64,000 nt of DNA from a gamma proteobacterium HTCC2207 (lineage in GTDB: Bacteria > Pseudomonadota > Gammaproteobacteria > Pseudomonadales > Porticoccaceae), in the NCBI GenBank assembly GCA_000153445.1, contig CH672397.1:416930-480929 (forward strand). The letters run 5' to 3'. The notes beneath the pieces were generated by a model that had not been told where the DNA came from, did no database searches, and saw only the letters and a program-made list of their open reading frames with translations. Positions 8,829 through 25,224 of the stretch are shown here, one piece after another; position 1 is the stretch's first letter, and every line of letters begins with the position of its first letter. The translations under genes were made by a program, and so were the position numbers.

Positions 8829-9674
8829 ATGTCTGCACTGATTCTTGATGGTAAATCTCTCGCCGCTAAAACCGAAGCCGAATTATCTCAACGGGTCGCT
8901 GCCCTTAAAGCGGCCAATAATGGTCAGGCCCCTATTCTGGCAACCATTCTAGTAGGTGGTGATCCCGCATCAGCGACCTATGTAAAGATGAAGCAGAATG
9001 CCTGTAAACGTGTGGGGATGGAATCTATAGCGGTTGAAATGGCCCATGACACCAGCACCGAACAGTTGCTGGCAAAAATTGAAGAGCTGAATAACAATCC
9101 TGACTGTCACGGTATTCTGTTGCAGCATCCAACACCCAAGCAGATAGATGAGCGCGCCTGTTTTGATGCCATTGCTCTGGCCAAAGATGTGGATGGCGTA
9201 ACCTGTCTCGGGTTTGGTCGCATGGCGATGAACGAGGAAGCCTATGGATCAGCTACACCTCAGGGCATTATGCGCATCCTCGAGGGCTACGCTATTGATA
9301 TGTCGGGCAAGCACGCGGTAGTTGTAGGTCGCAGCCCGATTCTTGGCAAGCCGATGGCACTGATGCTCTTAAATGCCAATGCCACAGTGACTATCTGTCA
9401 TTCAAAAACGCAGAACCTTCCAGAACTGATTAAGCAGGCTGATATTCTGGTGGGTGCAGTTGGTCGACCTGAGTTTATTAAAGCCGAGTGGATTAAAGAT
9501 GGCGCCGTAGTAGTGGATGCCGGCTACCATCCTGGTGGCGTCGGCGATATTGAATTGGCGCCATTGGTTGATCGGGTTGCTGCCTATACGCCGGTTCCCG
9601 GTGGTGTTGGGCCAATGACGATTAACACACTGATTCTACAGTCAGTTGCCGCTGCTGAAAAAAGCCTTGGTTAG
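8829..9674 (+). CDS. folD: Bifunctional methylenetetrahydrofolate dehydrogenase / methenyltetrahydrofolate cyclohydrolase
   Basis: A 281-residue FolD, normal length. Seen: the substrate site with [18 protein letters not shown] (catalytic Lys in YVKMK), [22 protein letters not shown], the NADP-binding [17 protein letters not shown], and the C-terminal signature [15 protein letters not shown]. It interconverts 5,10-methylene- and 10-formyl-tetrahydrofolate in one-carbon metabolism. AGG precedes the ATG at suitable distance. The gene lies 150 bases after tRNA-His and may have its own promoter in the AT-rich gap. A clear terminator follows. Confidence 0.97.
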
Positions 9675-9802: not shown

Positions 9803-11317
9803 CTAGCGGCTTTCTCGCAAAGCAATCAATTGCTCATGAAGCTCCGCAACAAGCGTTTTAAAGTCTTTATTGTCGGCCAGATTAACAGTCTCTTTGGGGT
9901 CATTTAGGTGATCAAAGAGCATTCGCGCCGTCACTTGGCCCTGCCGATCAAACCACTCTGTCATGGCATAACGATCGGTTTTGATCACATCTGCTGCATG
10001 CCAGCGAGGAAACACAGCAGCTTTGCCAGGAGCGCTGCTATCGAGCAGCTGGCTGCCGAAGCTCTCCCCCTGCAACTGAGGAAGTTTAGGCTTGCCCAAT
10101 AACTCTAGTACAGTCGGAAATATATCGACAAATTCAACCAAACCCTCGGCGATACCGACTCCTGGGTTCAAGCTCGGAGTAAGTTCATTGCTTTTGGATA
10201 GAGGGCTTTTGGATAGGGTGCTTTTAGATAGAGAGTTTTTTAGCAGCCGCCCCATCGGTGATGTATCAGTCAGGGCTGACGGCAACTTAACGATTAGCGG
10301 TGTTCTTGTGGCCACATCAAAGGGCGAATGTTTAACCCACAAACCATGCTCACCAAGACTAAAGCCATGGTCACCGGCGAGAATAACAATAGTATTCTCA
10401 TCGAGATTAAGCTGTTTTAATTTAGTCAGCAGTTTGCCCACCTGAGCGTCCGAGTAACTGACGCTGGCAAGATAGCCATGAACCAGTTTTTTTGCCATCG
10501 CATCAGGCACCGGATGGGGAGACTTTGAAATACCCTCAAACTTGCGTAACTCGCCCCAGCTGTGGATGGCTTCCCGAGGCGCCCCCACTGGCATAAGTGG
10601 ATTGCTGGCAAGATCTATATCCTCTTCGTTATATAAATCCCAGTAACGTAAAGGCACAGTAAAAGGCAGATGAGGCTTTAAAAAACCCACCGCCATAAAG
10701 AAAGGCTGATCACGCTGACTGGCGGACTCCAGGGATGCCATGGCCTGATCGGCAATCATGCCATCAAAGTAATGATTATCCGGCACATCCGCGGCTTCAT
10801 AGGCGGGGCCAGTCCGATCCTTCAGAAAGCTGGCAATGTTTTCCGCGCTTTGATAATTACGGTGCCCTATGCGCTTAATCTTGGCCTTCGGGTTCCAGGG
10901 TGGCGTACTCCAACCTGCTTTAGAATCCTCAGAAAAGTGCAATATCTTACCGATACTTTCGCTGTAGTAGCCCTGTTTTTTGAGATAACCAAATAGCGTT
11001 TCCGCTCCTTTGGCATCTTCATCAATACGTGCTTGATAACCAACAAAGCGTTTTTCCGTCGGTCTGATACCCGACATCATGCTGGCCCTAGACGCACCGC
11101 AGACCGGCACATTGACATAGGCATTGGCAAACACCACAGACTCACGGGCTAGGCTATCTATATTCGGTGATTTAACCGCTGTGCTGCCGTAAGCGCCCAG
11201 TTCTGGGCGCAGATCATCAATCATAATAAACAGCACATTGGCCGGCTTGACGTCACTGGCAACAGCATTACATGCCAGTGACATACCGCACATAAGGATT
11301 GGCAAAATATTTTTCAT
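9803..11317 (-). CDS. Secreted type I sulfatase, iduronate-2-sulfatase-like
   Basis: 504 residues with an N-terminal signal peptide (hydrophobic core ILPILMCGMSLAC, probable cleavage after AVA). FIMIDDLRPELGAYG gives the metal-binding Asp pair. The formylglycine signature is C-G-A-S-R with Cys73, which needs a maturation enzyme encoded elsewhere. Further sulfatase landmarks are FFMAVGFLKPHLPF and ILAGDHGFSLGEHGLWVKH. Overall it resembles the S1_7 iduronate-2-sulfatase group, but specificity cannot be read from sequence. A five-residue repeat block (LSKS units, residues about 361-376) lies in the C-terminal half. It is the last gene of the receptor-GH10-GH3-sulfatase series, 34 bases after the preceding sulfatase. 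Confidence 0.9.
   Translation of the reverse strand: MKNILPILMCGMSLACNAVASDVKPANVLFIMIDDLRPELGAYGSTAVKSPNIDSLARESVVFANAYVNVPVCGASRASMMSGIRPTEKRFVGYQARIDEDAKGAETLFGYLKKQGYYSESIGKILHFSEDSKAGWSTPPWNPKAKIKRIGHRNYQSAENIASFLKDRTGPAYEAADVPDNHYFDGMIADQAMASLESASQRDQPFFMAVGFLKPHLPFTVPLRYWDLYNEEDIDLASNPLMPVGAPREAIHSWGELRKFEGISKSPHPVPDAMAKKLVHGYLASVSYSDAQVGKLLTKLKQLNLDENTIVILAGDHGFSLGEHGLWVKHSPFDVATRTPLIVKLPSALTDTSPMGRLLKNSLSKSTLSKSPLSKSNELTPSLNPGVGIAEGLVEFVDIFPTVLELLGKPKLPQLQGESFGSQLLDSSAPGKAAVFPRWHAADVIKTDRYAMTEWFDRQGQVTARMLFDHLNDPKETVNLADNKDFKTLVAELHEQLIALRESR
10191..10235. repeat. Three 15-bp in-frame tandem repeats in a sulfatase gene
   Basis: Units start at 10191, 10206 and 10221 (CTTTTGGATAG plus four variable bases on the + strand). 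Read on the coding strand they give consecutive LSKS(T/P) pentapeptides. The 15-bp unit keeps frame, so copy-number change would lengthen a surface loop without inactivating the enzyme. Confidence 0.85.
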
Positions 11318-11351
11318 AGAGCAGCCTTTTCCTTTCTATTTTAACGGTTAG

Positions 11352-13016
11352 TTAGTGTGCTGCAGGTTTGCCCTTAGATAGCCCTGCCCTAACCTTATCC
11401 GGCTTCATAAAGTTACGTAGGTCTTGTTCACTGCCATCCCGTAACCATTGCTCTGGGAACTCAGCCGCTTTTGATCGCTCACCTTCACGAAACACTGCAC
11501 CATGACTAAATTTCTCAGTGTAGGGAACACTCAAGCCATCGCGAGAATCCCCTAGGCGAGCAAATAACTTGCTGCGCAGATCGGCGACCACAGCCAAGGA
11601 GTCTGGATCGTGAATCAGATTGTTCATCTCTTTAGGATCTGTGCGCATATCATAGAGTTCTTCGGTATCCCAAAGGCCGTGATAGGTAATAAATTTATAG
11701 TCATCTGTGCGCAGTGCAAAGGTCGTTGGCGTGCTCGGATAATTAAATTCCCAGTAGTATTCATAGAGCAGATCATCGCGCCATTGGCTAGCTGAGTCAC
11801 CCTGCGCCAGAGAATAGAGACTCTCTCCTTCAAATTGCTCGGGAGATTCAACTCCAGCAATATCTAGTATGGTCGGCGCAATATCAATATTGGCGGCTAT
11901 CTCTTTGACCACATGATTGCTCTTTAAGCCATTACCCCAGGCTAAAAGTGGCACCCGCATAGACTCCTCATACGCATTACGCTTATCAATCAGACCGTGC
12001 TCACCAAACATAAAACCATTGTCACCCATCAGCATAACGATAGTGTCGTCGGCATGGCCATTGTCTTCGAGCCACTGAAACAGGCGGCCGAGACTTTCGT
12101 CCACAGCAGAGAGCGCTCGATGGTAGCGCATTTTGTAAGCCTGAACATCCAGTGAGCTGTGATAAGGAAAATCAACGCCGTGCCAGCTATTACGCTGATT
12201 CTTAACCCACATGGGCTTACCCTCGTAATTTTCAGGGGTATCAGCTTGACTATCAGGCACCGGGATGGTTCTGTCGGCATACTGCTCTTTGTGACGTTGC
12301 GCTGGTGCAAAATTTGCGTGTACCGCCTTGTGCGAAAGGTACATAAAGAACGGTTCTTCGCTGTCGCGACTGTCCAGCCAATCCACTGCGTAATCGGTTA
12401 ACTCATCAGTGATATAACCTTTTTGTTTAACAACATCGCCATTGATATTGAGCATGCTCTGCTCACCATTGGGTTTGATTGGATAGTAATGACCCTGACC
12501 GGCAAAGCTCACCCAGTGATCAAAGCCTGGCTGTGGATCATCGAGCCTGCGTCCGGCTGGCGCCAATTCACCCATGTGCCACTTACCGACAAAGGCGGTG
12601 TTGTAGCCGGCCTTTTGCAAGTACTCAGGAAAGAAAATCGTGCCCTCGCGAGGTGGCTTATTATTGTCGACCACGCCGTGGTTGTGCATATATTGGCCGG
12701 TGAGGATCGAAGCGCGACTCGGGGAGCAGAGTGCCGTGGTGACAAAGGCATTCTCAAAGTGGACACCTTCGGCGGCCATACGATCCATGTTCGGCGTATC
12801 TATAACCGGGTTCATAAAACCCAGTTCATCGTAGCGCTGATCATCGGTGAGAACATAGATCACGTTCTTTGGTTTGCTGACTGGTTGAGCACTTTTTTGG
12901 CCTGCGCTGTCGCCGCCCACCTGCGTATCGTTACAAGCAACCAATGCCGAAATCATTATGACTGCAGTCGCTTTACCTATGAGTGTATTTGCCCAATTGC
13001 GTTTAAAACCATTCAT
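11352..13016 (-). CDS. Lipoprotein type I sulfatase (arylsulfatase family)
   Basis: 554 residues. The N-terminus is a lipoprotein signal with lipobox LVAC (Cys28), so the enzyme is probably membrane-anchored, facing the periplasm or surface. VIYVLTDDQRYDELG supplies metal-binding Asp residues. C-S-P-S-R, with Cys97 as the formylglycine precursor, lies in TTALCSPSRASILTGQY. PFFMYLSHKAVHANFAP and MLMGDNGFMFGEHGLIDKR complete the active-site pattern. It resembles N-acetylglucosamine-6-sulfatase-like members, but the substrate is not assignable. AAGGA precedes the start. It lies 48 bases after the GH3 gene in the same predicted operon. Confidence 0.9.
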   Translation of the reverse strand: MNGFKRNWANTLIGKATAVIMISALVACNDTQVGGDSAGQKSAQPVSKPKNVIYVLTDDQRYDELGFMNPVIDTPNMDRMAAEGVHFENAFVTTALCSPSRASILTGQYMHNHGVVDNNKPPREGTIFFPEYLQKAGYNTAFVGKWHMGELAPAGRRLDDPQPGFDHWVSFAGQGHYYPIKPNGEQSMLNINGDVVKQKGYITDELTDYAVDWLDSRDSEEPFFMYLSHKAVHANFAPAQRHKEQYADRTIPVPDSQADTPENYEGKPMWVKNQRNSWHGVDFPYHSSLDVQAYKMRYHRALSAVDESLGRLFQWLEDNGHADDTIVMLMGDNGFMFGEHGLIDKRNAYEESMRVPLLAWGNGLKSNHVVKEIAANIDIAPTILDIAGVESPEQFEGESLYSLAQGDSASQWRDDLLYEYYWEFNYPSTPTTFALRTDDYKFITYHGLWDTEELYDMRTDPKEMNNLIHDPDSLAVVADLRSKLFARLGDSRDGLSVPYTEKFSHGAVFREGERSKAAEFPEQWLRDGSEQDLRNFMKPDKVRAGLSKGKPAAH

Positions 13017-13064
13017 GCATAAATCCTTAATGACTCGTATTCAATTCTGTTTTTGTTTTTAGCA

Positions 13065-15380
13065 TTAGTCTTTAACGCGCAGCTGAATGCTTTTTAGATC
13101 CGCTCCACGAGAAGAAGAACCTACCATCAAGGTGAAGGCTCCGGGCTCGACTACCCACTCCATAGCACGGTTGTAGTAGGCCAACATCTCAGGCTCCAGT
13201 GTAAAACTAACGCGCTTTGATTCGCCGGCTTGCAGATAGATCTTTTCAAACCCCTTTAGCTCTTTAACCGGGCGGGTTATTTCACTGTAATTGTCACGCA
13301 CATAGAGCTGCACCGTTTCATAACCAGCGCGATCGCCGCTATTGGTCACTGTCACAGAGAGATTGGTGTTCTCGGTTTTTTGAATGCTTTTCTTATCCAA
13401 AACTGGCGGAGAGAAAGCAAACTCGGTATAGCTGAGCCCATAACCAAACTCAAACAGATTGCGGGTCGGCGCATCAGCATATTTGTGCTTGTAAGCCGAT
13501 GGCTTGTGGTTATAAATCGCCTGAGTGTGACCGATGCTATAGGGCACAGTGATGGGTAATTTACCGCTGGGGTTAGTCACGCCATAGATAATTTCTGCCA
13601 GCGCCTGCCCGCCCATTGCGCCGGGTTCCCAGGCTTCAATAACAGCAGCACTGTTATCCACGACCCAGGGTTCAGCGATCGGCCGACCATTAACCAAGAC
13701 CACAATCACCGGCGTTCCAGTTGCATGAATAGCCTGCACCAACTCAAGCTGTCTGCCGATAAGATTTATCGACGATCGAGCAACATTTTCGCCAGACGTC
13801 TTGCCTTTTTTGTCGTAGCGCAGGGGATTTTCACCCACCACCACAACCGCTACCTGAGACTGACTGGCGCGTTTGGCTGCGGCGAGAATATCCTCTGTAG
13901 AAAGGTTTTTAACCTGTTTGCCGACATCGTAAAAATCAATATTTTTAGGACTGGCAGCAACCGCTCTAAGACCTTCGAGTACCGTTGTGACATTGTTCTC
14001 AGGCTGTTCCAGCACCCAGTCCCCAAGTATCGTATGGTTGTCAGCATTGGGCCCAGTCACAAAGACTCTGCTATTTTTTTGCAAGGGTAAAATATTATCG
14101 TTATTGGTTAACAGCACGATCGCCTGCCGCGCCATTTCCAATGCAGTTTGTTGATGGGCTGCAGTAAACACCGACTGTTCAATCTGGCTCTCATCGACAT
14201 AGGGATTTTCAAATAATCCGAGACGGAATTTGGCCAGTAGCATTGGGCCTACTGATTCATCTATGCGCGCCTCGGAGAGTCGGCCTTCATTGACCAGCTC
14301 TACCAGCGGCTCAAGAAAATCTGGCCCGTGCATATGCATATCCATTCCCGCATGCACGGTTTGGTAGACCGCCTCTTTTTGGCTGTTGGCAACTCGATGA
14401 AAGGTATGCAAGCGTTCAATGTCCATCCAATCACTTACCACAAAGCCTTTAAAGCCCCACTCTTCGCGTAACACATCATTAAGTAGGTAACGACTGCCGT
14501 GGGCGGGTTCGCCATTGATCTCATTGTGGGCGGCCATAAAGGTAAATACACCCGCGTCGACAGCTCGCTTGAAGGGCGGGAAGAAATCCTGGCGCAGACT
14601 GCGTTCAGAGACATCCATGGGCGATAGGTTAATACCGTTGATCGGATCACCGCCGGCAACCCAGTGCTTGGCGTTAGCAATCACTTTCTGTGGCCCATCA
14701 AAGTCTCTCTGCTGCAGGCCCTCAATCGTCGCCACACCCATTTCAGCCACAAGGAACGGGTCTTCTCCAAAGGTTTCACCCACTCGCCCCCAACGGGGAT
14801 CACGGGCTATATCCACATTCGGTGTAAAGCTCCAGTGGGAGCCGGTGGCACGCATTTCGCGAGCGGTTTCAATACTTGCCTGTTTAACCAGGCCAAGGTT
14901 CCACGAACTAGCCATACTTAGGGGGGCAGGATAAACCGTGGAACCACTGACCATAGCGTTGCCGTGTATCGCATCTATGCCGATTAGCAAAGGGATACCC
15001 AAACGGCTCTGTGCAGCGTGGCGCTGTAATAAGTTGGCTTCAGAGGCGGTCAATACATGAAGAAATGAACCGACTTTGCCGGTCTCGATAAAGGCTGGAA
15101 TCTGTGATGAGTGAAGATCGGGATAGAAACCTTGAGCGTCACTCTTGGCAAGGTCATCAATGGACATCTGCTGCTCTGATTCAGCCGTGTGATCAATACC
15201 CACGTACTGACACATCTGCCCTACCTTTTCCTCTAAAGTCATCCGTGGCAAGAGATCAGCGACCCTCTGCTCAGGGGTTAAACTAGCGTCTAAGTAGGCG
15301 GGCAAAAGTTCGCTGCTGATCGAGGTTAAGGAAACAGTAGAAATCAGTAATCCGGTAAAGCTAAGCAATAATTTTTTCAT
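13065..15380 (-). CDS. Glycoside hydrolase family 3 beta-glycosidase (BglX-like)
   Basis: 771 residues, full GH3 length with an N-terminal signal peptide, so periplasmic. The GH3 N domain carries PLLIGIDAIHGNAMVSG, NVDIARDPRWGRVGETFGED and KHWVAGGDP. The catalytic nucleophile is Asp317 in GFVVSDWMD. The GH3 C domain and a C-terminal fibronectin III-like domain follow (YETVQLYVRDNYSEITRP, then GAFTLMVGSSSR). BglX-type enzymes act as beta-glucosidase or beta-xylosidase; next to a GH10, xylo-oligosaccharides are a reasonable but unproven substrate. It sits 66 bases after the GH10 gene. Confidence 0.92.
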   Translation of the reverse strand: MKKLLLSFTGLLISTVSLTSISSELLPAYLDASLTPEQRVADLLPRMTLEEKVGQMCQYVGIDHTAESEQQMSIDDLAKSDAQGFYPDLHSSQIPAFIETGKVGSFLHVLTASEANLLQRHAAQSRLGIPLLIGIDAIHGNAMVSGSTVYPAPLSMASSWNLGLVKQASIETAREMRATGSHWSFTPNVDIARDPRWGRVGETFGEDPFLVAEMGVATIEGLQQRDFDGPQKVIANAKHWVAGGDPINGINLSPMDVSERSLRQDFFPPFKRAVDAGVFTFMAAHNEINGEPAHGSRYLLNDVLREEWGFKGFVVSDWMDIERLHTFHRVANSQKEAVYQTVHAGMDMHMHGPDFLEPLVELVNEGRLSEARIDESVGPMLLAKFRLGLFENPYVDESQIEQSVFTAAHQQTALEMARQAIVLLTNNDNILPLQKNSRVFVTGPNADNHTILGDWVLEQPENNVTTVLEGLRAVAASPKNIDFYDVGKQVKNLSTEDILAAAKRASQSQVAVVVVGENPLRYDKKGKTSGENVARSSINLIGRQLELVQAIHATGTPVIVVLVNGRPIAEPWVVDNSAAVIEAWEPGAMGGQALAEIIYGVTNPSGKLPITVPYSIGHTQAIYNHKPSAYKHKYADAPTRNLFEFGYGLSYTEFAFSPPVLDKKSIQKTENTNLSVTVTNSGDRAGYETVQLYVRDNYSEITRPVKELKGFEKIYLQAGESKRVSFTLEPEMLAYYNRAMEWVVEPGAFTLMVGSSSRGADLKSIQLRVKD

Positions 15381-15446
15381 GATCGGTGTAAAGGGCCTTA
15401 TTGTTTAATAGGTGTAATCAAAATGGTTTGTTACTGAAGAATTTTT

Positions 15447-16748
15447 TTATGTCAGATTAATCTGTGCATTCACAGTGCCTGACTTCAATGGCACTGCAAA
15501 TGTACCGTTATTAGCCCCGCTCACCCGTAAATGGTAGAGCCCCTTATAGCCGGTAAAATTAACCTCTCCTCGACTATCCGTGAGTAATTCAACCTCGGTA
15601 GACCAGCGTTTGTTAACTAAGTCATGCCACACCTGGCCGTTGGGTTTTAATCGCAGGTTGCGATCAACCAGCGCCGCGTCAGGCTTTGGCACACTGTTTT
15701 TAGCGTATTCAAAAGGTGTCCAGGTAAGCAGTCCGGTCATCTGCGGCTGACTAAAGACAGCCGTCATAAAGTCTTCGGTATAACGTGCCTGAAACTCTAA
15801 ATTAGGCGTTTCAAAATCAAACTCGGTAACCTGCAGCTCGGTATTTAGCGCAGCGAAATCATTCATAATGGAGAGCAGCTCTTGCGGTGCAGTAGGCGCA
15901 AATCCCTTGGGGATATGTGCTTGAAATCCAATCCCTTGAATAGCTGCGCCCTGCTTTAACAGGCCCTCGATATAGTTAAAATAAAACGTCCTGTGGCGCA
16001 CTGAATTTTTAGTCAGCACTCCGTAGTCATTAATGTAACGCTTAACCTCGGGGCGAATCTGCTGCACCTGTTGAAACCAATCGACAGCGACCTCGGGTCC
16101 GAGAATATCCATAAACTCATGACTGCTAAAAGGCTCATTGAGTACATCCCATTCAGTCAGCGGATCGCCATATTGGCTGACCATTTTGTAAATATGATCA
16201 TTGAGTAGTTTACGCAACTGCACTTTGTTACCCGAGTATCTGGCATGTTCTACAGCAGCTCGTTTGAAACCGGGCCAGATTAAACAGTGCCCGCGAACCG
16301 GGATACTGCGCTCTGCACACCAATCCATAAAAGGTCCGATGTACTCACTATTGTTGTCATGGTGCTTCCACTTAAAGGCATTCTCAGGCGTCAATTTGTG
16401 GAACAGCAAATCGCAGTACTCCAAATGACGCTGCCTTATTTCCTCAGGATATGGGCTACCATATAGCCGCCTTAAGCGCGGTGCAGCACCGAAACCAAAA
16501 TTATGACGATAGAGTTTTGCTATAACCGTTTGATTTGTTAACGGCATGCCCGCGGCGTCTGTTACCTTGACATTGAAGCGGCCTTTGCGAAGCGTCTCGA
16601 TGCGCTGCTTGGCCTCTTTTCGCCAACTTGCACTGTCTTCCATACCGGCATAAGAAGCGGTTGCAATAGACAGTGTTTCCGACTGTTTGGCGAACCCTAA
16701 AGACGGCATGGCAGCTGTCACAGCTGATATAAAACGTCGCCTATTCAC
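15447..16748 (-). CDS. Glycoside hydrolase family 10 endo-beta-xylanase-like protein, atypical subgroup
   Basis: 433 residues starting with GTG. The N-terminus MNRRRFIS plus a hydrophobic stretch looks like a twin-arginine signal. A small beta-rich segment (about 57-90) precedes the GH10 barrel. The acid/base is Glu205 in DVLNEP and the nucleophile is Glu309 in QVTEFDF (usually TELD). The usual WH pair in the RGHTLVWH region is replaced by RGHCLIWPG. The barrel is followed by a C-terminal segment of about 60 residues. GH10 enzymes cleave internal beta-1,4-xylosidic links; this subgroup may act on a modified xylan. The gene follows the receptor gene after 117 bases that contain a hairpin. Confidence 0.85.
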   Translation of the reverse strand: MNRRRFISAVTAAMPSLGFAKQSETLSIATASYAGMEDSASWRKEAKQRIETLRKGRFNVKVTDAAGMPLTNQTVIAKLYRHNFGFGAAPRLRRLYGSPYPEEIRQRHLEYCDLLFHKLTPENAFKWKHHDNNSEYIGPFMDWCAERSIPVRGHCLIWPGFKRAAVEHARYSGNKVQLRKLLNDHIYKMVSQYGDPLTEWDVLNEPFSSHEFMDILGPEVAVDWFQQVQQIRPEVKRYINDYGVLTKNSVRHRTFYFNYIEGLLKQGAAIQGIGFQAHIPKGFAPTAPQELLSIMNDFAALNTELQVTEFDFETPNLEFQARYTEDFMTAVFSQPQMTGLLTWTPFEYAKNSVPKPDAALVDRNLRLKPNGQVWHDLVNKRWSTEVELLTDSRGEVNFTGYKGLYHLRVSGANNGTFAVPLKSGTVNAQINLT

Positions 16749-16826
16749 AATTACACTACCACCCGTATCCAGTTAAAGTAAAAGCAGCTCTAAAGTGACC
16801 CTATCTGCATGTTTAAACACTATTCC

Positions 16827-16849
16827 CTCCCAGCAAGGACCGCTGGGAG
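16827..16849 (-). promoter_or_regulatory. Intercistronic hairpin between receptor and GH10 genes
   Basis: CTCCCAGC (16827-16834), a 7-base loop and GCTGGGAG (16842-16849): a perfect 8-bp stem just after the receptor stop codon. No T-tract follows on the minus strand, so it is more likely an mRNA-stabilising or processing hairpin, or a leaky terminator, than a strong terminator. Confidence 0.6.
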
Positions 16850-16865
16850 AGACAGTGTTAGAGCT

Positions 16866-19619
16866 CTAGAACTTGTACCGGAGGCCCAAGGCGTAACGGC
16901 GGCCAAATTCACGATAGGAAATAATCCGTGATTCATCACCAGCAAAGGTGACGGGCTTTTCGTTGGTTAGATTAATCGCCTCTGCGGTCAACGTGAGACC
17001 AGTGTCACCCACCTGATAACTCATGCTGGCATCAACCTGTGAGTAGGCTTTGTGATAGATAGGCAGACCACCAAGGCTCGAAGTAAAGAGTAAAAAGTCA
17101 TCTCGATCGGTATAGGATATACGACCTGAAAAGTCTTCTTTCTCATAGAACAGCACTAGGTTCATGCTCGATTCCGAGAGGCCTTCCAATGGCAGTTCGT
17201 TGCCAAATGGGTCATCTCTACCTGTAGAACTGTCAATCATGGTGTAGTTGAAAATCGTACCTACGCCATCAAAGGGAGCCGGCAGCTGAGTGAAATTCTG
17301 CTGATAGGAGAACTCAAGACCCTGAATAGTAGCGCCTTCACCATTGGAGGGTGCCGTAACCAAATACTGCACCGCATCACCGTTGTCGTCTAATTCAAAC
17401 CCGGGAACAACTTCGCTGAACTGAGTAGATGAAACATAGGAACTGACGTCTTTGTAGAATGCAGCGGTTGAGAGTAATCCACCTTTATTGAAATACCATT
17501 CCAGAGACAGATCGAACTGATCTGCAAGAAAAGGATCAAGATCGGGATTACCACGAGTTGCGGTCTGTGCACCCTGATTGACGTTATAGCCTAAGGTCAA
17601 CTGCTGGAAGCTAGGACGAGACATTACTTTGGCATAACCGCCACGCAGCAAGAGATCATCGTCAAGCACATAGACGACGTTTAAACTCGGCAACACTTCA
17701 GAATAGCTACGTTGGTCGTTGAGTGGTACCAAAGCAGCGCCATCATAGGTATTACTATTACCGTCCTGGTCGGTGCTGACATAGCGCAGACCAAAATTAC
17801 CGCGCAGCTTGTCAGTGGCGAAGGTCGCCATGGCATAGGCTGCAGTAATTTCTTCACTGACATCCCAGTTGCTAATACCGTCCTGCTTGGCTCGAATCAC
17901 CGGGGTACCCAGCTCGCCGTCGGCATCGTAGGAATAGTCTTCCAGAATCATGCTTGCAGAGGGTAGGAACCACGATGAAGGCATGCCGCCCGTAACAGAA
18001 AAGTCGTCTACTGGGAATGTACTGTCGCCAATATAATCCGCCAGAGTACAGCTGTGAGCATCATCGCCACAGGTATTGGATCCTCTATTGTTAACGGAAT
18101 CCACAGCCTTGTACTGACGCTTAGTACGATCGCGGTATTTAGCACCGAACTTTACGCTGGTGATCCAGCTATCATTAATCGTGCGCTCGAAATCCAGCTG
18201 GGCGTACTCTTCTTCGTCAGTATTTTGTAGCACTGCGCGAGACAGATTCTGCCAAACCAGATCGGAGGGGCCAGATACCGCCTCTCCACCAGCCAAGGTA
18301 GCAGCCAAAGTGGAAAATTCAACACCGCGAGTATCATAGGAGACACTGCTCCCCTTTGGGCCAAAAGTGGCAAATAGAGCTGGGTCCTGTTTGCCCTCAC
18401 CCTCGGAAGCGCCCACTCGTGCCGAGACCAACCAATCTTCAGACGTCCAATCTACAGAGAGATTAACCGCATCGGTGGTGTAGTTATATTCACGATCAAA
18501 GGCAGCGACAAAATAGCGCTGATGAAAGGATTTGTTACTCGTACTGTTGGTCACCGCGACAAAATTATCGCCGTCGAGAACGGCACTCTCAATCAAGGTA
18601 TTGCCAACACCACCTGGGGCGTCAGTAAATCTATAGGCACTGTTGCTGGCATGCTCAAAACGGGTTAAGTCAGTCGTCAAATAATCCAACTTAATGTCGA
18701 GGTTGTCCGTGGGTCTATACTGAAAGACAACGTTGAGGCCCGAGCGCTCACGCTCTTCAAGCCGAATATTCTGGCGTAAGTCCTTGGGCATATAACCGTA
18801 GGCAATGCCATCAACCGGTGCAGTCAACTGCGCTGGAGAACCGGCATCGCTTATCTTACCTGTGCTGGCATCAAAGCCAACGTAGCGGTAACCAAAGGAC
18901 TCCAGACTGTCGCGACGAAAAGGTTCCTCTGAATTATTGTAACTGACCAAGACACCTAATTCGCGACCCTGAGAGTCAGTGCTAGAATCGGTATAGAGTA
19001 ATGAATAGTTTTCACCCTCGTCATCGCGCAGATTGTTAAATGACTGCTTGATATTGACTACCGCAGTGCGGTTTTTAAAGTCCAGTGGAGAGCGAGTTTT
19101 GAGGTTAACCGTTCCGCCCAGAGAGCCTTCATCCTGACTGGCCGACGGAGTCTTAAATACCTCGAGGCTCTCAACTAGCTCTGGCGAGATAGTGTTGTAG
19201 TTAAAGCTTCGTGAACCACCGGATACAGAAGTGGTAGAAATGGTTTGGCCATTTACTGTGGCTCGGTTCAATGCCGGTGGCGTGCCGCGAACACTGACTT
19301 CACTGCCCTCGCCTACACCGTCGTTGTCGCCTGCACTGACGTTTGTACCGCGACTAATTTGCACACCGGTAACACGCTGTAGTGACTCGGCGATATTGTG
19401 ATCGGGGAACTTGCCCAGATCCTCTGATGTTACGACCTCAACAAACTCATTTGAGTTACGTTTGCGGTCAATTGATTTTTCAAGACTGGCGCGGACACCG
19501 GTCACTACGACCTCTTCTATATCAGTGTCCTGAGCGATGGACTGATGAGAAAATCCAGACGCCGCTATTACTACACATAGCAGCCTTAATTTAAATGAGC
19601 CATTGGCTAAATTCGACAT
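16866..19619 (-). CDS. TonB-dependent outer membrane receptor
   Basis: 917 residues with a signal peptide ending near SIAQ. A TonB-box-like EEVVVTG is followed by the plug domain (SLEKSIDRKRNSNEF, EDLGKFPDHNIAESLQRVTG, VSVRGTPPALNRATVNGQ). A long 22-strand-type barrel follows, ending in ALGLRYKF with the terminal Phe needed for assembly. The IAESLQRVTGVQISR pattern is the type seen in carbohydrate-locus receptors of Gammaproteobacteria. It would import oligosaccharides across the outer membrane using TonB energy. GGGGA precedes the ATG at good spacing. It is the first gene of the minus-strand GH10-GH3-sulfatase series; no SusD homologue is present, as expected outside Bacteroidota. Confidence 0.95.
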   Translation of the reverse strand: MSNLANGSFKLRLLCVVIAASGFSHQSIAQDTDIEEVVVTGVRASLEKSIDRKRNSNEFVEVVTSEDLGKFPDHNIAESLQRVTGVQISRGTNVSAGDNDGVGEGSEVSVRGTPPALNRATVNGQTISTTSVSGGSRSFNYNTISPELVESLEVFKTPSASQDEGSLGGTVNLKTRSPLDFKNRTAVVNIKQSFNNLRDDEGENYSLLYTDSSTDSQGRELGVLVSYNNSEEPFRRDSLESFGYRYVGFDASTGKISDAGSPAQLTAPVDGIAYGYMPKDLRQNIRLEERERSGLNVVFQYRPTDNLDIKLDYLTTDLTRFEHASNSAYRFTDAPGGVGNTLIESAVLDGDNFVAVTNSTSNKSFHQRYFVAAFDREYNYTTDAVNLSVDWTSEDWLVSARVGASEGEGKQDPALFATFGPKGSSVSYDTRGVEFSTLAATLAGGEAVSGPSDLVWQNLSRAVLQNTDEEEYAQLDFERTINDSWITSVKFGAKYRDRTKRQYKAVDSVNNRGSNTCGDDAHSCTLADYIGDSTFPVDDFSVTGGMPSSWFLPSASMILEDYSYDADGELGTPVIRAKQDGISNWDVSEEITAAYAMATFATDKLRGNFGLRYVSTDQDGNSNTYDGAALVPLNDQRSYSEVLPSLNVVYVLDDDLLLRGGYAKVMSRPSFQQLTLGYNVNQGAQTATRGNPDLDPFLADQFDLSLEWYFNKGGLLSTAAFYKDVSSYVSSTQFSEVVPGFELDDNGDAVQYLVTAPSNGEGATIQGLEFSYQQNFTQLPAPFDGVGTIFNYTMIDSSTGRDDPFGNELPLEGLSESSMNLVLFYEKEDFSGRISYTDRDDFLLFTSSLGGLPIYHKAYSQVDASMSYQVGDTGLTLTAEAINLTNEKPVTFAGDESRIISYREFGRRYALGLRYKF

Positions 19620-19753
19620 TGCAAAATCCCCGATAATTACTAAAATTTATATTTTTATAATTGCTACTATTTCGCTAACTATAATGGCTCTTTGAGTTAT
19701 CTAGAATAATCAGGAATTGCTGAAATGTAGAGTCAGGTAATGGAATTTTTTAC

Positions 19754-19771
19754 TGTAGGGGTTGTCCTACA
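19754..19771. promoter_or_regulatory. Inverted repeat, candidate operator upstream of the receptor gene
   Basis: TGTAGG (19754-19759), six bases, then CCTACA (19766-19771), a perfect dyad 135-152 bases upstream of the receptor start and 25 bases after the response regulator stop. Size and spacing fit a dimeric NarL/LuxR-type regulator site. A weak -10-like TATAGT lies at 19678-19683 on the minus strand without a good -35, consistent with activator dependence. No copy was found upstream of the kinase or the third sulfatase. Confidence 0.45.
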
Positions 19772-19795
19772 AAACCGATAAATAAATCGAAATTC

Positions 19796-20440
19796 TTATA
19801 AAAGTAAACCTGATTTATTGGCATAGAGGATTAGCTCTGCATTGGTTGAAAACCCCATTTTTTGCATTAGCCTTGACCTATGAGTGGCGACAGTTTTAGC
19901 ACTCACCTGCAATTTTTCAGCAATATCTTTTGCTCTTTTACCTGAAGCCAGTTCAAGAAATATTTGATACTCCCGGTCTGAAAGAGACTCATATAGAGAC
20001 AAGTCATCTGCATTAGAAAAGCTACGACTCATAGTATTAGCCAAAAGTCCGCCCACAATTTCATTGATATAGCGCCCACCTGCAGCAGCAGTTTTCACCG
20101 CCTTTATAATCTCTGTCTCTTCAGAATCTTTCGAGATATAGCCTGCTGCGCCAGCCTGAATCAACCTAACAGCGTATTGAGACTCAGGGTAACTGCTCAG
20201 AATCAGCACCGGCAGATGGGGCTTTTCTGACTTAATTTGTTTTAGAACATCGACACCACTGCGGCCAGGCAGACGGATATCCAGTACTACCAGACCCCAG
20301 TCTTGCTTTCGAACCTGCTGCATAGCCTCGATGGCGTCATTGGCCTCACCCAAGACCACCGAACCAAGATGTTCAATGAGCATCTGTTTTAACCCATTTC
20401 TAACTACAGCATGATCGTCAACAAGAAGAATGGATGACAT
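19796..20440 (-). CDS. NarL/FixJ-family response regulator
   Basis: 214 residues. The receiver domain begins ILLVDDHAVVRNG with acidic Asp8-Asp9, the phospho-acceptor is Asp54 in VVLDIRLPG, and the switch and Lys positions are in LILSS and YISKD. The C-terminal LuxR-type helix-turn-helix is LSDREYQIFLELASGKRAKDIAEKLQVSAKTVATHRSRL. It is a DNA-binding partner for the divergently encoded histidine kinase. AGGA precedes the ATG by 6 bases. It is upstream of the receptor gene on the same strand, so it probably controls the polysaccharide genes. Confidence 0.93.
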   Translation of the reverse strand: MSSILLVDDHAVVRNGLKQMLIEHLGSVVLGEANDAIEAMQQVRKQDWGLVVLDIRLPGRSGVDVLKQIKSEKPHLPVLILSSYPESQYAVRLIQAGAAGYISKDSEETEIIKAVKTAAAGGRYINEIVGGLLANTMSRSFSNADDLSLYESLSDREYQIFLELASGKRAKDIAEKLQVSAKTVATHRSRLMQKMGFSTNAELILYANKSGLLL

Positions 20441-20663
20441 TATTTATCCTAGTAAAGGTCATTAAAGATTTTATTTTCCAGCAAAGTAACAGATACTTGC
20501 CGAATCAGGAACCAGAATTAGTTATAAATAGAAAATTTTATTAAAAATCTGGCTATGCTTTTTAAGAGTACTCGATTAACTTTTTATTTTTTTAGTTGAG
20601 TTTATCAGTTCGAAATATAAGCTTGGACTTTAGGCTTGAGATATAAGTTCAATAATGAATATC

Positions 20664-20715
20664 AATCTATAAGAGCAATCCATAAGAGAAATCCATTAAA
20701 TCAATCCATAAAATG
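20664..20715. repeat. Four 13-bp tandem repeats running into the kinase start codon
   Basis: Units AATCTATAAGAGC, AATCCATAAGAGA, AATCCATTAAATC and AATCCATAAAATG start at 20664, 20677, 20690 and 20703. The last three bases of unit 4 are the predicted ATG of the sensor kinase. There is no recognisable Shine-Dalgarno sequence between them. The rest of the 272-base regulator-kinase gap (20441-20712) is very AT-rich and presumably holds both divergent promoters. Confidence 0.8.
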
Positions 20716-22473
20716 AATGAGTCCCAAATGTCGGCACCGCTCCACCTTATCTTCGCATGCCTAACTACCTGCCTTGCCCTCTTGGTTACTGCCTCTGTGG
20801 CCAGCGCAGAAACTCAGGTAGAGCAACCTGCCAATGCCGACAAGCTGGCACTACAATCATCACTCACCGAGGCAGAGCGTAACTGGCTGCGCAAACACCG
20901 AACAATCAGGCACGGTATTATCAGCAACCAAATGCCCTTCGAATATGTAGATGATAATGGCCAGTACCGCGGATTGACTTCAGACTATATCGCCATTATT
21001 AGCGAACAGTTGGATATTAGCTTTGAGCCATCCTTTTTCTCCGACCTAACCACGCTGTCAAAGAATATTAGAGAAAACCGGGTAGACCTAGCCAGCTATC
21101 TGCCCCCGCCACGAGGAAAACTAAGCTACAGTGAATCGGTTATCGAAATGCCCATCGCCCTCTTTGGGCGACAGGATTCTGCGCTAATCGTTGGCATTGA
21201 GTCGATTCGGGATGAGCGCGTAGTCATTGAAAAGCCTTCGAAAGCAGAGCAAATACTTTCTCAATTTTATCCGCAGATTGCGGTTAGCTATGTGGATACG
21301 CCCGCACAGGGTATTCAGGCAGTACTCGCTGGCAATGCCGACATATTTATTCACAATGTTTTTTCCGTTGAATACTACACACGTAAACTGGGGCTCCCGC
21401 CTTTAAAAACCGTGTCTAACACCCCTTATACCTTTGATATTGCATTTGCGGTAACCGAGGACCTCAGGCCCTTTATCCCGATTTTCCAAAAAGTCATCTC
21501 AGGTCTAAGCAAGCGGGAAAGACAGCTAATTTTCGATAAGTGGGTCAATATTGAGGTAACTCGGAAACTCGACCTAAAACGAATAGGACTTTGGGCCGGT
21601 GCTGCCCTACTACTTGTCCTATCGGTATTTCTGGCTATTCTGCGGTGGAACAAAATTCTTCAGGAGAGGGTCGCCTACAGAACCCAAGAGCTTGAATTAT
21701 CAAGCAAAAACTTACGTAGCCTCGCACGCCATATGGATCAGGTGCGAGAGGAGGAAAAGGCCAAGTTAGCTCGTGAGATCCATGATGAGCTCGGGCATAC
21801 TCTGATTTCTCTGACCATGGCTGTGAGGCGACTGAAAAGCACAGCCTTAAAAAACTTTAGTCAGCCGGAGGTAAGCAGCTTTGCAACCCAAAGCTCTTTA
21901 ATACAAAGCTCTTTAATACAAAGCTCTGTAACCCAAAGCTCGCAAACCAAAAGCGCTGAGCTAAACAGTCAATTTGATGAAATTAAAGCCTTGCTGTTAA
22001 AGGCGTCAAGTACCTCTAGGTCTATCATGTCAGATCTGCGGCCCAGTGTTTTAGAAGATCTGGGACTGGCTGCAGCCATAGAGTGGCTGGCCCATGAATT
22101 TGAAATACACCATCAAACTCTGTGTATTGTTCGCGGTGCTCAGCCTCCCGATACGATCTCACCCACCATTGCTATAGCTGTGTTTCGGATCGTTCAAGAG
22201 TCACTGACCAATATCGCCAAACACGCCAAGGCCAAGACGGTTCAAATCAAGCTCAGCAGTGACAATGGTCTGCTTAAAATAGAGATTATTGACGACGGCG
22301 TTGGTCTCCAGTCTGGCTGGGACAATAAAGAAGGCTCATTCGGTTTTCAGGGTATGCGCGAGAGAGCCATGAGTTTCAATGGAGAAATCAGCGTCGCCAA
22401 TGGCAAAAAATCTGGAGTGGTTTTAAGGCTCCAAATTCCCTATCAAAAATCAGACATCGACTCCAGGCACTAA
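20713..22473 (+). CDS. Sensor histidine kinase with periplasmic solute-binding domain
   Basis: 586 residues. A signal/membrane segment (about 11-32) is followed by a family 3 solute-binding-like sensor domain (about 60-280; IRHGIISNQMPFEYVDDNGQ, then GNADIFIHNV). A transmembrane helix IGLWAGAALLLVLSVFLAIL comes next, then a coiled linker and a HisKA_3 dimerisation domain with His357 in REIHDELGHTL. The HATPase domain shows ESLTNIAKHAKA (N box), DDGVG and GFQGMRERA. A 15-bp repeat block adds about 20 residues between the two dimerisation helices. It has no receiver domain, so it should phosphorylate the divergent NarL-type regulator. The start at 20713 lacks a clear ribosome site; ATG 20728 is an alternative. 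Confidence 0.9.
   Translation: MNESQMSAPLHLIFACLTTCLALLVTASVASAETQVEQPANADKLALQSSLTEAERNWLRKHRTIRHGIISNQMPFEYVDDNGQYRGLTSDYIAIISEQLDISFEPSFFSDLTTLSKNIRENRVDLASYLPPPRGKLSYSESVIEMPIALFGRQDSALIVGIESIRDERVVIEKPSKAEQILSQFYPQIAVSYVDTPAQGIQAVLAGNADIFIHNVFSVEYYTRKLGLPPLKTVSNTPYTFDIAFAVTEDLRPFIPIFQKVISGLSKRERQLIFDKWVNIEVTRKLDLKRIGLWAGAALLLVLSVFLAILRWNKILQERVAYRTQELELSSKNLRSLARHMDQVREEEKAKLAREIHDELGHTLISLTMAVRRLKSTALKNFSQPEVSSFATQSSLIQSSLIQSSVTQSSQTKSAELNSQFDEIKALLLKASSTSRSIMSDLRPSVLEDLGLAAAIEWLAHEFEIHHQTLCIVRGAQPPDTISPTIAIAVFRIVQESLTNIAKHAKAKTVQIKLSSDNGLLKIEIIDDGVGLQSGWDNKEGSFGFQGMRERAMSFNGEISVANGKKSGVVLRLQIPYQKSDIDSRH
21889..21948 (+). repeat. Four 15-bp in-frame tandem repeats inside the kinase dimerisation domain
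   Basis: Units of CAAAGCTC plus seven bases begin at 21889, 21904, 21919 and 21934. They encode a Ser/Gln-rich run (QSSLI, QSSLI, QSSVT, QSSQT) at residues about 393-412. The two first units are identical, suggesting a recent slippage duplication. Confidence 0.85.
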
Positions 22474-22549
22474 ATTAGTGCGAAGTAACAATCTTTTGCG
22501 CGCGGGACCATTTAAAGGGGAAACACATCATTCACCAAGGGATCTCTAG

Positions 22550-24193
22550 ATGCGTATTAGATTAACTATGGCGATTCTTTGCCTAGCGCTTGTGCCACTA
22601 ACTACCAATGTACTTGCACAGCAGCGACCGAATATTCTATTGATTATGGCCGAGGATATGAGCGCTAGAGTAGGTGCATTTGGCGATGATGTCGCCGTCA
22701 CACCCAATCTCGATCGTCTCGCCAGCACCAGTATTCGCTATCCCAATACTTTTACTACTGCAGGCGTCTGCGCACCGAGTCGCGCAGCGCATATACTCGC
22801 GGTCCACCAGATGTCGGTGGGCGCACAGCATATGCGCACCCGATCATTTAAGGAGTCGGCCTACCGATCGGTACCACCAGCGCATATCAAAGCCTATCCA
22901 GAATTGTTACGTCGCCAAGGTTATTACACCTTTACCAGCTCTAAGCTCGACTATCAGTTCAGTAATACATCTGCTGGGTCTGGCCCCTTTAGCATCTGGG
23001 ACTACGAAGGTGCGCAACCTACCTGGCAGGGTCGTGCAGAAGGTCAGCCATTTTTTGGTTTCGTGACGCTGACACAAAGCCATGAGCGACAGATGTTCCC
23101 CAATGTTGTCGTGGCAAACAATGCTACAGGGACTCGTAGTCAGGTCGTCAATCCAAACGAAGTTCTAGTGCCACCCTACTACCCCGACCATCCCGCTATT
23201 CGGAGGGATATTGCTCAGCACTACAACAATATTTTTTCCATGGATCAGACGGTTGGCAAATTGCTCCGCCAGCTGGAGGACGATGGCTTGGCCGATAATA
23301 CGATTATTATCTGGACCACCGACCATGGCGATGGCCTGCCCCGAGCCAAGCGTGAAATTTATGACAGTGGTATTAAGGTGCCATTAATTGTGCACTGGCC
23401 CGCAAGCCTTAAGCCTGCAGGCGTGAGCCCTAACAGTATTGATAAAAAGCTGATTAGCTTTGTCGATATAGGACCGAGTGTTTTGACCGTGGCGGGGATC
23501 CAGGTGCCAGACTACATGCATGGCAGTGCTCAGCTAGTGCCAAATGCCAGTCCAGAAAGAGACTATATCTATGCCGCCAAAGACCGTCTCGACGGCTTTA
23601 ACTTTCGCGAGCGCGCAGTGCGCGATGGCCAGTTTAAATACATCAACAACCTGCTCCCAGACAAACCAGGTGCCACACATATTTCGTACCGCGATCAACT
23701 GGCTACCATGCAGGCGCTTTGGCAACATCAAGCTGCAGGCAAGCTGAATGCAGCGCAACGCTTTTGGTTCGAGCCACGCCCAGCGGAAGAGCTTTACGAT
23801 ATAGTCGTAGACCCCCATGAAATTAATAACCTAGCGGATTCTGCCGAACAGGCAGCGACTCTGACGCGAATGAGGAGTGCATTAACAGACTGGCGGGGCG
23901 CGATTGCTGACTACAGCAAGACAGCGGAATTACAGATGGCTAAGGATTTTTGGCCCGATGGAGAGCAGCCGGTCACTCAGGCACCTCGGATCTCAATTAA
24001 TACTGCGGGAACCGCCATCATAGTGCCTTCGGCAGCCAATGATTCAGTTGGATATCGTGTCAATGGCGGCCCCTGGAGACTTTATAGCAAACCTCTGTCA
24101 CTGCCTAAAAACGCCATTTTAGAGGCTAAGTCGGTTCGCTATGGGTGGGCAGAGAGCCAATCAACCCGTGCTTCGCATAGCCTTGGTGATTGA
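22550..24193 (+). CDS. Secreted type I sulfatase with C-terminal beta-sandwich extension
   Basis: 547 residues with a signal peptide (cleavage near VLAQ). NILLIMAEDMSARVGAFGDD carries the metal-binding acids. The formylglycine signature is C-A-P-S-R with Cys74 in TAGVCAPSRAA. IIWTTDHGDGLPRAKREIYDSG and LYDIVVDPHEINNLAD are later sulfatase motifs. It resembles the heparan N-sulfatase-like (S1_8) group, but the substrate is unknown. The last ~70 residues (GYRVNGGPWRLYSKPLSLP) look like a chitobiase-C-type or Fn3-like domain. AAGGGA precedes the ATG. It lies 76 bases after the kinase on the same strand and may be cotranscribed. Tandem repeats span its stop codon. Confidence 0.9.
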   Translation: MRIRLTMAILCLALVPLTTNVLAQQRPNILLIMAEDMSARVGAFGDDVAVTPNLDRLASTSIRYPNTFTTAGVCAPSRAAHILAVHQMSVGAQHMRTRSFKESAYRSVPPAHIKAYPELLRRQGYYTFTSSKLDYQFSNTSAGSGPFSIWDYEGAQPTWQGRAEGQPFFGFVTLTQSHERQMFPNVVVANNATGTRSQVVNPNEVLVPPYYPDHPAIRRDIAQHYNNIFSMDQTVGKLLRQLEDDGLADNTIIIWTTDHGDGLPRAKREIYDSGIKVPLIVHWPASLKPAGVSPNSIDKKLISFVDIGPSVLTVAGIQVPDYMHGSAQLVPNASPERDYIYAAKDRLDGFNFRERAVRDGQFKYINNLLPDKPGATHISYRDQLATMQALWQHQAAGKLNAAQRFWFEPRPAEELYDIVVDPHEINNLADSAEQAATLTRMRSALTDWRGAIADYSKTAELQMAKDFWPDGEQPVTQAPRISINTAGTAIIVPSAANDSVGYRVNGGPWRLYSKPLSLPKNAILEAKSVRYGWAESQSTRASHSLGD

Positions 24194-24304: not shown

Positions 24305-25054
24305 TTACTCACTACTAATTTTTTTAATCATAGCGGCAATAGAATCCCGGGCGTAGGGTTGATTAATCGACCAAACCTGCGCCGCGGTTTCAATCTCCAA
24401 CATCTCTTTATGGCTATTTGTGCCGCCCGCCGTGCGTAAAGTCTCTTTTGTACGCAACAATAGCTCTTTCGGCAAGTCACGAATATTAGCCGTAAATTCA
24501 AAGGCCTCTGCAACCAGATCTTCATTGCTAACGCATTTCCAAGCCAAGCCCTTTTCAACCGCTTCACGACCACTCAATGACTGAGAAAACAGCAACATAC
24601 CAGCCGCGGTATTCCAGTTGACCAACTGTCGCAACATCCACGTATTGCCGCCGCCCGGATGCAGACCCAAGCCAAAGAAACGCGGTTCAAAGCGCGCGGC
24701 TTCAGTGACAATCCGCACATCGCAACCCACTGCCATATTAAAGCCAGCGCCAACAGCTGCGCCATTTACCGCGGCTATGGTGGGTAATTTACAGTTGGCG
24801 ATACTTAAGAAACCACTATAAATCGCCTCCAGAATTTCCTGGTCGGGAATCAAATCACTCAGCTGCCCGCCTGCACAGAACGCACGACCGGTGCCAGTAA
24901 CGATTAAAGCCTTAACCTCTGGGTGCTCCTCCGCTTCAGCCACATACTGGACAATCCGCGCGCAGACCTCGCGGGTCAGCATATTGCGTTTATCGGGGTT
25001 ATTTAAGGTAAGTAACGCCGCATTATCGCGAATTTCAAACAGCACATGTGTCAT
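24305..25054 (-). CDS. Crotonase-family enoyl-CoA hydratase/isomerase lacking both hydratase glutamates
   Basis: 249 residues from the ATG at 25054, which AAGAGA precedes; a longer frame to 25120 adds 22 unconvincing residues. Crotonase landmarks are NNPDKRNML, AFCAGGQLSDL (first oxyanion-hole loop) and AAVNGAAVGAGFNMAVGCDVRI (second). Compared with rat enoyl-CoA hydratase, the E144 position is Asn106 and the E164 position is Phe126, so a standard hydratase reaction is unlikely. An isomerase or another crotonase reaction on an acyl-CoA is more plausible. The gene stands alone between the third sulfatase (convergent) and the glycerophosphodiesterase (divergent). Confidence 0.85.
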   Translation of the reverse strand: MTHVLFEIRDNAALLTLNNPDKRNMLTREVCARIVQYVAEAEEHPEVKALIVTGTGRAFCAGGQLSDLIPDQEILEAIYSGFLSIANCKLPTIAAVNGAAVGAGFNMAVGCDVRIVTEAARFEPRFFGLGLHPGGGNTWMLRQLVNWNTAAGMLLFSQSLSGREAVEKGLAWKCVSNEDLVAEAFEFTANIRDLPKELLLRTKETLRTAGGTNSHKEMLEIETAAQVWSINQPYARDSIAAMIKKISSE

Positions 25055-25224
25055 AGGATAAGTCTCTTTAGAGCGAAAATAGAAGGATAGCACTACAATG
25101 CTTCTATGGCGCAATGCCATAGCCGTTATTCACAAGAAACCATATCGGTTAGCGGCTCAAAGTCATACTATGTAGTCATCGGAAACTGGACATACAATGC
25201 TCTTCAGCAATCTGGAAACCTAAC

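Follow-up and report, generated by a model that had tools for sequence, protein, structure and literature searches.

The window analysed here is a 64,000-nucleotide stretch of contig CH672397.1 from the gammaproteobacterium HTCC2207 (assembly GCA_000153445.1), a SAR92-type host. At positions 9803 to 24193 it contains a block of eight genes, all of whose reading frames were present at the coordinates given in an initial annotation made from the letters alone. That annotation had listed a TonB-dependent receptor, enzymes of families GH10 and GH3, three sulfatases, a NarL-type regulator and a kinase with a solute-binding domain, and this inventory was borne out, every domain assignment exceeding its curated Pfam cut-off. 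In reading order, the minus strand carries a NarL/LuxR-type response regulator (19796..20440; Response_reg and GerE, with D54 placed by eye), a TonB-dependent receptor of the TIGR01782 subfamily (16866..19619; Plug and TonB barrel, 702 bits against a TIGR01782 cut-off of 310), an endo-xylanase-like GH10 with an N-terminal extra domain (15447..16748; PF00331, 131 bits), a GH3 exo-glycosidase of beta-xylosidase/beta-glucosidase type (13065..15380; Glyco_hydro_3, Glyco_hydro_3_C and Fn3-like), and two S1 sulfatases, sulfatase b (S1b, 11352..13016; PF00884, 219 bits) and sulfatase a (S1a, 9803..11317; 145 bits). On the plus strand, a sensor histidine kinase (20713..22473; SBP_bac_3, HisKA_3 and HATPase_c, with a signal and one transmembrane segment by eye) is followed by sulfatase c (S1c, 22550..24193; PF00884, 129 bits). 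The edges of the site are folD (8829..9674, plus strand) and an enoyl-CoA hydratase gene identified by Pfam (ECH; 24305..25120, minus strand).

The gaps between the minus-strand genes (34, 48, 66, 117 and 176 bp), the 76-bp gap between the kinase and sulfatase c genes and the 272-bp divergent region separating regulator and kinase (20441..20712) are consistent with two transcription arms, in line with the minus-strand operon and divergent kinase-sulfatase arm first proposed. In two relatives the GH10 and GH3 genes, taken as their longest frames, share 4 bp. Export signals on the enzymes were visible by eye, with a twin-arginine type signal on GH10 and a lipobox on S1b, which supports the earlier suggestion of periplasmic processing.

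This arrangement is not due to chance, because the identical eight genes in identical order occur in three relatives. A scan of named genome contigs (14 loci from 130 pattern matches) gave GH10 relatives 88-92% identical in SAR92 bacterium H921 (L022; genome G026), SAR92 BACL16 (L023; genome G016), a Pseudomonadales metagenome-assembled genome (MAG; L024) and a Porticoccaceae MAG fragment (L025). The first three hold the whole block with its order kept, one at the folD-ECH site and two elsewhere; L024 and genome G436 agree in contig number and coordinates and were taken as one genome. The GH10 was found in 3 of 35 same-genus genomes, own included, with weak partial matches in two genomes of the same order, and at class level in 4 of 369 genomes (E <= 1e-10, own included), the sole other full-length match being 24% identical.

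The insertion site was compared through folD, which had a match in 40 of 50 genomes. In the 30 loci compared for what comes next, folD is followed by sulfatase a in four (the window genome, G431, G436 and, at 56%, G025), by ECH in 18 (in two across a gap of some 650 bp), directly by a GDPD-like gene in six and by neither in two. In H921 and BACL16, folD and ECH stand side by side and the block sits elsewhere. Compared with H921, the tracts 10995-15194 and 17894-22693 of the window are near 99% identical at the DNA level (single 300-bp windows go down to 93%), the rest of the block is mostly 78-90% identical, and folD and ECH reach 75.6% and 74.6%. As block tracts of about 99% contrast with flanks of about 75%, these alignments indicate that the block or parts of it were exchanged recently between species and that it is a mosaic. 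In L024 the block occupies the same site and is similar to its flanks in divergence (83-90%), a pattern that would be expected for vertical descent.

Concerning the enzymes, the initial annotation had claimed catalytic residues in each of them. This stood for the sulfatase motifs given below and for GH10, whose acid/base and nucleophile glutamates E205 and E309 were invariant in 16 aligned sequences, window included, together with the glycone-subsite residues N204, H154, W158, Q276, H278 and W343. The GH10 retains the elements TPENxxKW, GHxLxW, NE, QxH and TE and aligned with the xylanases 4xv0 and 1nq6. Its AlphaFold2 (AF2) model (mean predicted local distance difference test score, pLDDT, 88.8) gave 8b73, 7d89 and 7d88 as best Foldseek matches, so that the predicted fold is nearest to the xylanases AcXyn10A and XynA. 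No sulfatase domain was present within the 433-aa protein, which matched only Glyco_hydro_10 in Pfam. The best solved relatives of GH3, 7zb3 and 8c7f, are named Beta-xylosidase and Xylosidase, and GH3 reached no NCBIfam equivalog cut-off.

A tree of 27 GH10 rows separated 20 block-type enzymes from 7 canonical ones (100/100). Within the former, a ten-member group joined sequences of SAR92, Cellvibrionales SI072, Kiritimatiellales/Pontiella and one Bacteroidota genome (G558, a long branch), from three phyla in all, with a support of 93/88 that falls under the tool's strong-support mark. All ten members have an S1_7-like gene resembling sulfatase a nearby, while the neighbourhood stretches of the other ten block-type rows gave no sulfatase match; the stretches are of unequal length, some come from short contigs, and the four nearest SAR92 rows do not count as independent. 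The tree left out L029, whose frame is masked by a longer antisense ORF and which does have S1_7-like neighbours, the fragments L025 and L035, and G470/L133, whose frame was lost in pruning and which has no sulfatase match nearby. In the Bacteroidota, the phylum of L035's genome, 29 of 395 genomes matched the GH10 at E <= 1e-15, and one of the nine neighbourhoods read (eight genomes) was sulfatase-rich. These data bear on a simpler explanation, in which the block serves for unsulfated (arabino)xylan or beta-glucan and the sulfatases are incidental neighbours. GH10 and GH3 are indeed common xylan and glucan enzymes and some Bacteroidota GH10 relatives have no sulfatases nearby; we nevertheless consider this explanation very improbable, given the S1_7-like sulfatases near every member of the group across three phyla and the recurrence of the block as a unit at different places. 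As a separate observation, the Kiritimatiellales/Pontiella GH10s of L028, L030 and L031, 38-40% identical, adjoin several sulfatases with the motif CGPSR.

All three sulfatases score over the PF00884 cut-off and show formylglycine-type motifs in their translations (CGASR in S1a, CSPSR in S1b, CAPSR in S1c), and C97 of S1b was invariant in six aligned sequences. The AF2 model of S1b had a mean pLDDT of 39.9 and was not used. The best solved relative of S1a was 6hhm (E 2.7e-73), followed by iduronate-2-sulfatase (3.8e-67), and that of S1c was the S1_8A structure 9bb9 (E 7.9e-75). S1b was closest to 7p24 and 5g2v, which we take to be members of S1_11, the type of its nearest 6-O-sulfatases. Its sixth relative, 7lha, is given as BuS1_11 in PMC9096561, where 6HHM appears as P18_S1_7, a 2-sulfo-D-xylose sulfatase. 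With the labels S1_7, S1_11 and S1_8 taken solely from nearest solved relatives, S1a and S1c would thus be nearest to families holding known xylose-2-sulfatases, those of characterised D-xylose 2-sulfatases in ulvan breakdown according to PMC9096561 and PMC8360166; the same two families also contain galactose sulfatases (PMC12549532, PMC9096561). Choline sulfatase, an assignment that would have spoken against a glycan substrate, was rejected: the three proteins scored 180, 192 and 121 bits with TIGR03417, far below its NCBIfam cut-off of 433.

The strongest evidence on the substrate comes from a sister locus in SAR92 AG-916-D20, which occupies the site of the window block and is flanked by folD and GDPD-cysS-glnS. 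It holds relatives of S1a (53%), S1b (75%), GH3 (64%), GH10 (53%) and S1c (57%), and in addition a XylA (TIGR02630, 664 > 533), a XylB (TIGR01312, 520 > 380), a canonical GH10 (325 bits), a GH43 with a beta-xylosidase C domain, a GPH symporter (353 > 231), an aldose epimerase, two extra sulfatases and a TonB receptor. Because this locus adds XylA, XylB, the canonical GH10, GH43 and the GPH symporter, sulfated xylan or a xylose-rich glycan appears to be the best candidate, and the sulfated xylan-like target proposed at the outset gains support from it as well as from the S1_7 and S1_8 likeness. The Cellvibrionales contig L027 likewise keeps the order receptor, GH10, GH3 (37%), sulfatase b (74%) and sulfatase a (59%). 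In H921 and BACL16, S1a is followed by a formylglycine-generating enzyme and a XylE-like symporter (481 bits, below the cut-off of 608), and a 96% relative of this symporter is located elsewhere in the window genome. Between the sulfatases of the AG-916-D20 xylan locus there is also a 419-aa protein without Pfam match (L026:1198-2457).

Several points weigh against a xylan-type substrate. The solved S1_8 enzyme nearest to S1c is a galactose-2-sulfatase (PMC12549532), and 4-sulfo-galactose is the substrate of one S1_7 enzyme (PMC9096561). The type of GH3 is ambiguous. S1b, closest to 6-O-sulfatases, fits a simple xylan poorly, as xylopyranose has no C6, and because of this misfit its role would call for either a branch of hexose or an altered specificity. 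Xylose isomerase (TIGR02630) was found in none of the three block carriers searched for it (the window genome, H921 and BACL16), each of which has two IlvD/Edd proteins, and therefore no extra xylonate dehydratase of that family, as well as two FGGY kinases, which in the window genome are one GlpK-like protein and one beside a GlpD-like gene (by eye). Xylose use by another route, or by genes lying in assembly gaps, is possible. Sulfatase maturation raises a similar question. In the window genome PF00884 gives eleven matches in ten genes (two matches are pieces of sulfatase c), and three of these genes belong to the block; a cysteine motif was recognised in eight of them but not in the genes of L007 and L008. 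A formylglycine-generating enzyme with its active-site cysteines, two residues with a known role in this enzyme, was not found in this genome, whose only PF03781 protein (PEGA-FGE, 690 aa, C2:299701) does not have the two cysteines, both of which are present in the H921 enzyme; anSME (TIGR03942) was found in none of the five genomes searched, this one included. Another maturase is possible, or a gene in an assembly gap, which a genome of 2.63 Mb in 6 contigs and 98.58% complete allows.

Some of these points would fit a mixed sulfated heteroglycan, such as an ulvan-like polymer or a sulfated xylogalactan, with xylose as one unit among others; S1b would then desulfate a 6-sulfated hexose, and the sugar feeding the cell would not be xylose. 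The S1_11 likeness of S1b and the absence of XylA from the three carriers favour such a heteroglycan, and one Bacteroidota locus of the same GH10 lineage also has GH29 and GH5. In H921, moreover, S1c adjoins the end of an operon that encodes a TonB receptor and a DgoA-type aldolase (243 bits, cut-off 207); elsewhere in the window genome, at L139 (C5:817901-837800), this aldolase (47%) and its neighbour gene (38%) have matches. On the other side, this operon runs convergently to S1c and occurs in one of the four block contexts examined, the sister locus, which shares the site, centres on xylose, and among the block genes Pfam found no ulvan lyase, GH105, GH78, galactanase or rhamnose gene, a search that covered the block and not the whole genome. 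On balance a heteroglycan of this kind seems to us rather unlikely. Two narrower versions were rejected: an ulvan locus proper, as the block has no lyase or rhamnose genes (a statement about the block and not the whole genome), and a galactan reading of the DgoA-type gene in H921, as its operon is separate and convergent and both genes have relatives elsewhere in the window genome. The neighbour of this gene, DgoK-like by eye, had no NCBIfam match.

We then considered how the block may be controlled. The parts of a two-component system are all present on separate proteins: a HisKA_3 histidine (H357, invariant in four aligned sequences, window included), a HATPase, a receiver and a DNA-binding domain. 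The kinase has a periplasmic Venus-flytrap domain (SBP_bac_3, 20905-21546) that matches those of an EAL protein (7ejg), BvgS and EvgS, and its residues from about 125 to 285 are mostly invariant across four aligned genomes. The regulator is 100%, 97% and 92% identical in the three full-block relatives. Among 50 same-genus genomes the kinase was found in four (the window genome, H921, BACL16 and G436; E <= 1e-25), each with the block, a co-occurrence that supports a tie between the two. We therefore consider it likely from gene content and linkage that the pair controls the block.

The pair might also answer another periplasmic signal, for instance amino acids, and be merely carried along with the locus. 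Its sensor domain does belong with the BvgS/EvgS and amino-acid flytrap group, a family that mostly binds amino acids or small acids and not glycans; the other locus type (L026/L140) had no linked kinase of this sort in the stretches read; and in G431, where sulfatase a (88%) adjoins folD and the contig stops close to it, the kinase had no match. Opposed to this are the lack of a kinase match in the other 46 congeners, its place on the same arm as a block sulfatase, and N215, invariant in the four aligned sequences, at what we take, by eye, to be the position where amino-acid flytraps carry the aspartate holding the amino group. This residue would point away from an amino-acid ligand and names no ligand of its own. 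We judge such a carried-along pair to be quite unlikely.

Two spacers contain candidate regulatory DNA. An inverted repeat, TGTAGG-N6-CCTACA (19754-19771), lies just past the regulator gene in the spacer before the receptor gene (19620..19795, minus strand), is kept in four aligned genomes and could be a site for the regulator. In the spacer between receptor and GH10 (16749..16865, minus strand), a stem-loop at 16824-16852 might be an mRNA end or an attenuator; it is largely kept in five sequences and shows no compensatory changes, which makes it a weak candidate. We claim no promoter, because shuffled sequences yielded more promoter sites than the real one (19.6 against 13) and likewise more terminator sites (15.2 against 7). 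A 9-mer common to two spacers was informally judged near chance and set aside.

From the gene set with its order and conservation, the signature residues, the sister locus and the confinement of the kinase to block carriers, we infer a compact utilisation locus for sulfated xylan or a xylose-rich sulfated algal glycan, a reading we moderately favour. The TonB receptor would import oligosaccharides into the periplasm, where the S1_7-like and S1_8-like sulfatases would strip sulfate, probably 2-O, from xylose residues and the S1_11-like lipoprotein sulfatase would take off another sulfate. GH10 could then cleave the desulfated or sparsely sulfated beta-xylan chain, and GH3 would free xylose from its ends. 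A breakdown product binding the flytrap of the kinase may lead to phosphorylation of the NarL-type regulator and switch on both arms. The DNA-level exchange shows that the block moves and recombines among SAR92 species. A wider proposition, which we put forward tentatively and hold to be rather unlikely as a whole, is that a distinct GH10 lineage, common to SAR92, Kiritimatiellota and some Bacteroidota, has adapted to sulfated xylan in concert with S1_7-type sulfatases, that in SAR92 it moves as a cassette with its own two-component system whose flytrap recognises a (sulfated) xylo-oligosaccharide and not an amino acid, and that in the window organism sulfatase maturation and xylose use follow routes not yet described.

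If the sulfated-xylan reading is true, Bacteroidetes, to which most use of this class of glycans is ascribed, would have a competitor among the gammaproteobacteria with a regulated locus passed between species, and the GH10 lineage with its S1_7-like neighbour would become a marker for such loci in other phyla. SAR92 H921, presumably an isolate, is a named carrier in which substrate and sensing can be studied.

Among known control systems, a two-component system regulating xylan degradation was reportedly described by Emami et al. in 2009 in Cellvibrio japonicus, also a gammaproteobacterium; to our knowledge it involves no sulfatases. Polysaccharide utilisation loci (PULs) of Bacteroides use hybrid two-component systems. 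The block differs from such hybrid systems in its flytrap sensor and in having kinase and NarL-type regulator as separate proteins, and would share with them the kinase-based control of carbohydrate genes (PMC10766802). Regarding the enzymes, the Formosa agariphila ulvan PUL (P18_S1_7, P32_S1_8; PMC9096561, PMC8360166) likewise pairs S1_7 and S1_8 sulfatases, and it differs in its ulvan lyase, GH105 and GH78; both reviews give D-xylose 2-sulfate as the target and disagree on which of S1_7 and S1_8 is exo and which endo. The lambda-carrageenan PUL of Pseudoalteromonas distincta U2A (S1_8A/B/C) contains the nearest solved relative of S1c, S1_8A, among its 2-O-sulfatases, but it acts on a galactose substrate and has GH150, GH110 and GH2 instead of GH10 and GH3 (PMC12549532).

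SAR92 bacteria are recurrent responders to spring blooms (PMC4829426). In work on 22 SAR92 species from the North Sea, the passages on xylan clusters list them for other gammaproteobacterial groups and none for SAR92, the clusters with sulfatases being in one UBA7434 species and those without in three Alteromonadaceae (PMC8371827). Titles, abstracts and passages on sulfated-xylan PULs and on SAR92 sulfatases or xylan contained no description of the present locus. The combination itself, which the initial annotation did not recognise as described, is nonetheless known in part: a conserved arrangement of GH10, GH3 and two further sulfatases, predicted to act on sulfated xylan, is pattern 1 among such PULs in marine Bacteroidetes (Kruger et al. 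2019, PMC6794258). The block resembles this pattern in joining GH10 with GH3 and three S1 sulfatases. It departs from it in that the Bacteroidetes GH10 carries a sulfatase domain whereas all block enzymes are separate, in its gammaproteobacterial host and NarL-type two-component pair, and in the lack of a SusC/SusD pair, none of the eight genes matching SusD in Pfam or NCBIfam and the receptor being a single TIGR01782 protein. The locus is real, conserved and mobile, and most likely serves a sulfated xylan-type glycan with its own two-component pair; its kind is already known in Bacteroidetes, and what is new is its gammaproteobacterial, two-component-linked and horizontally exchanged form.

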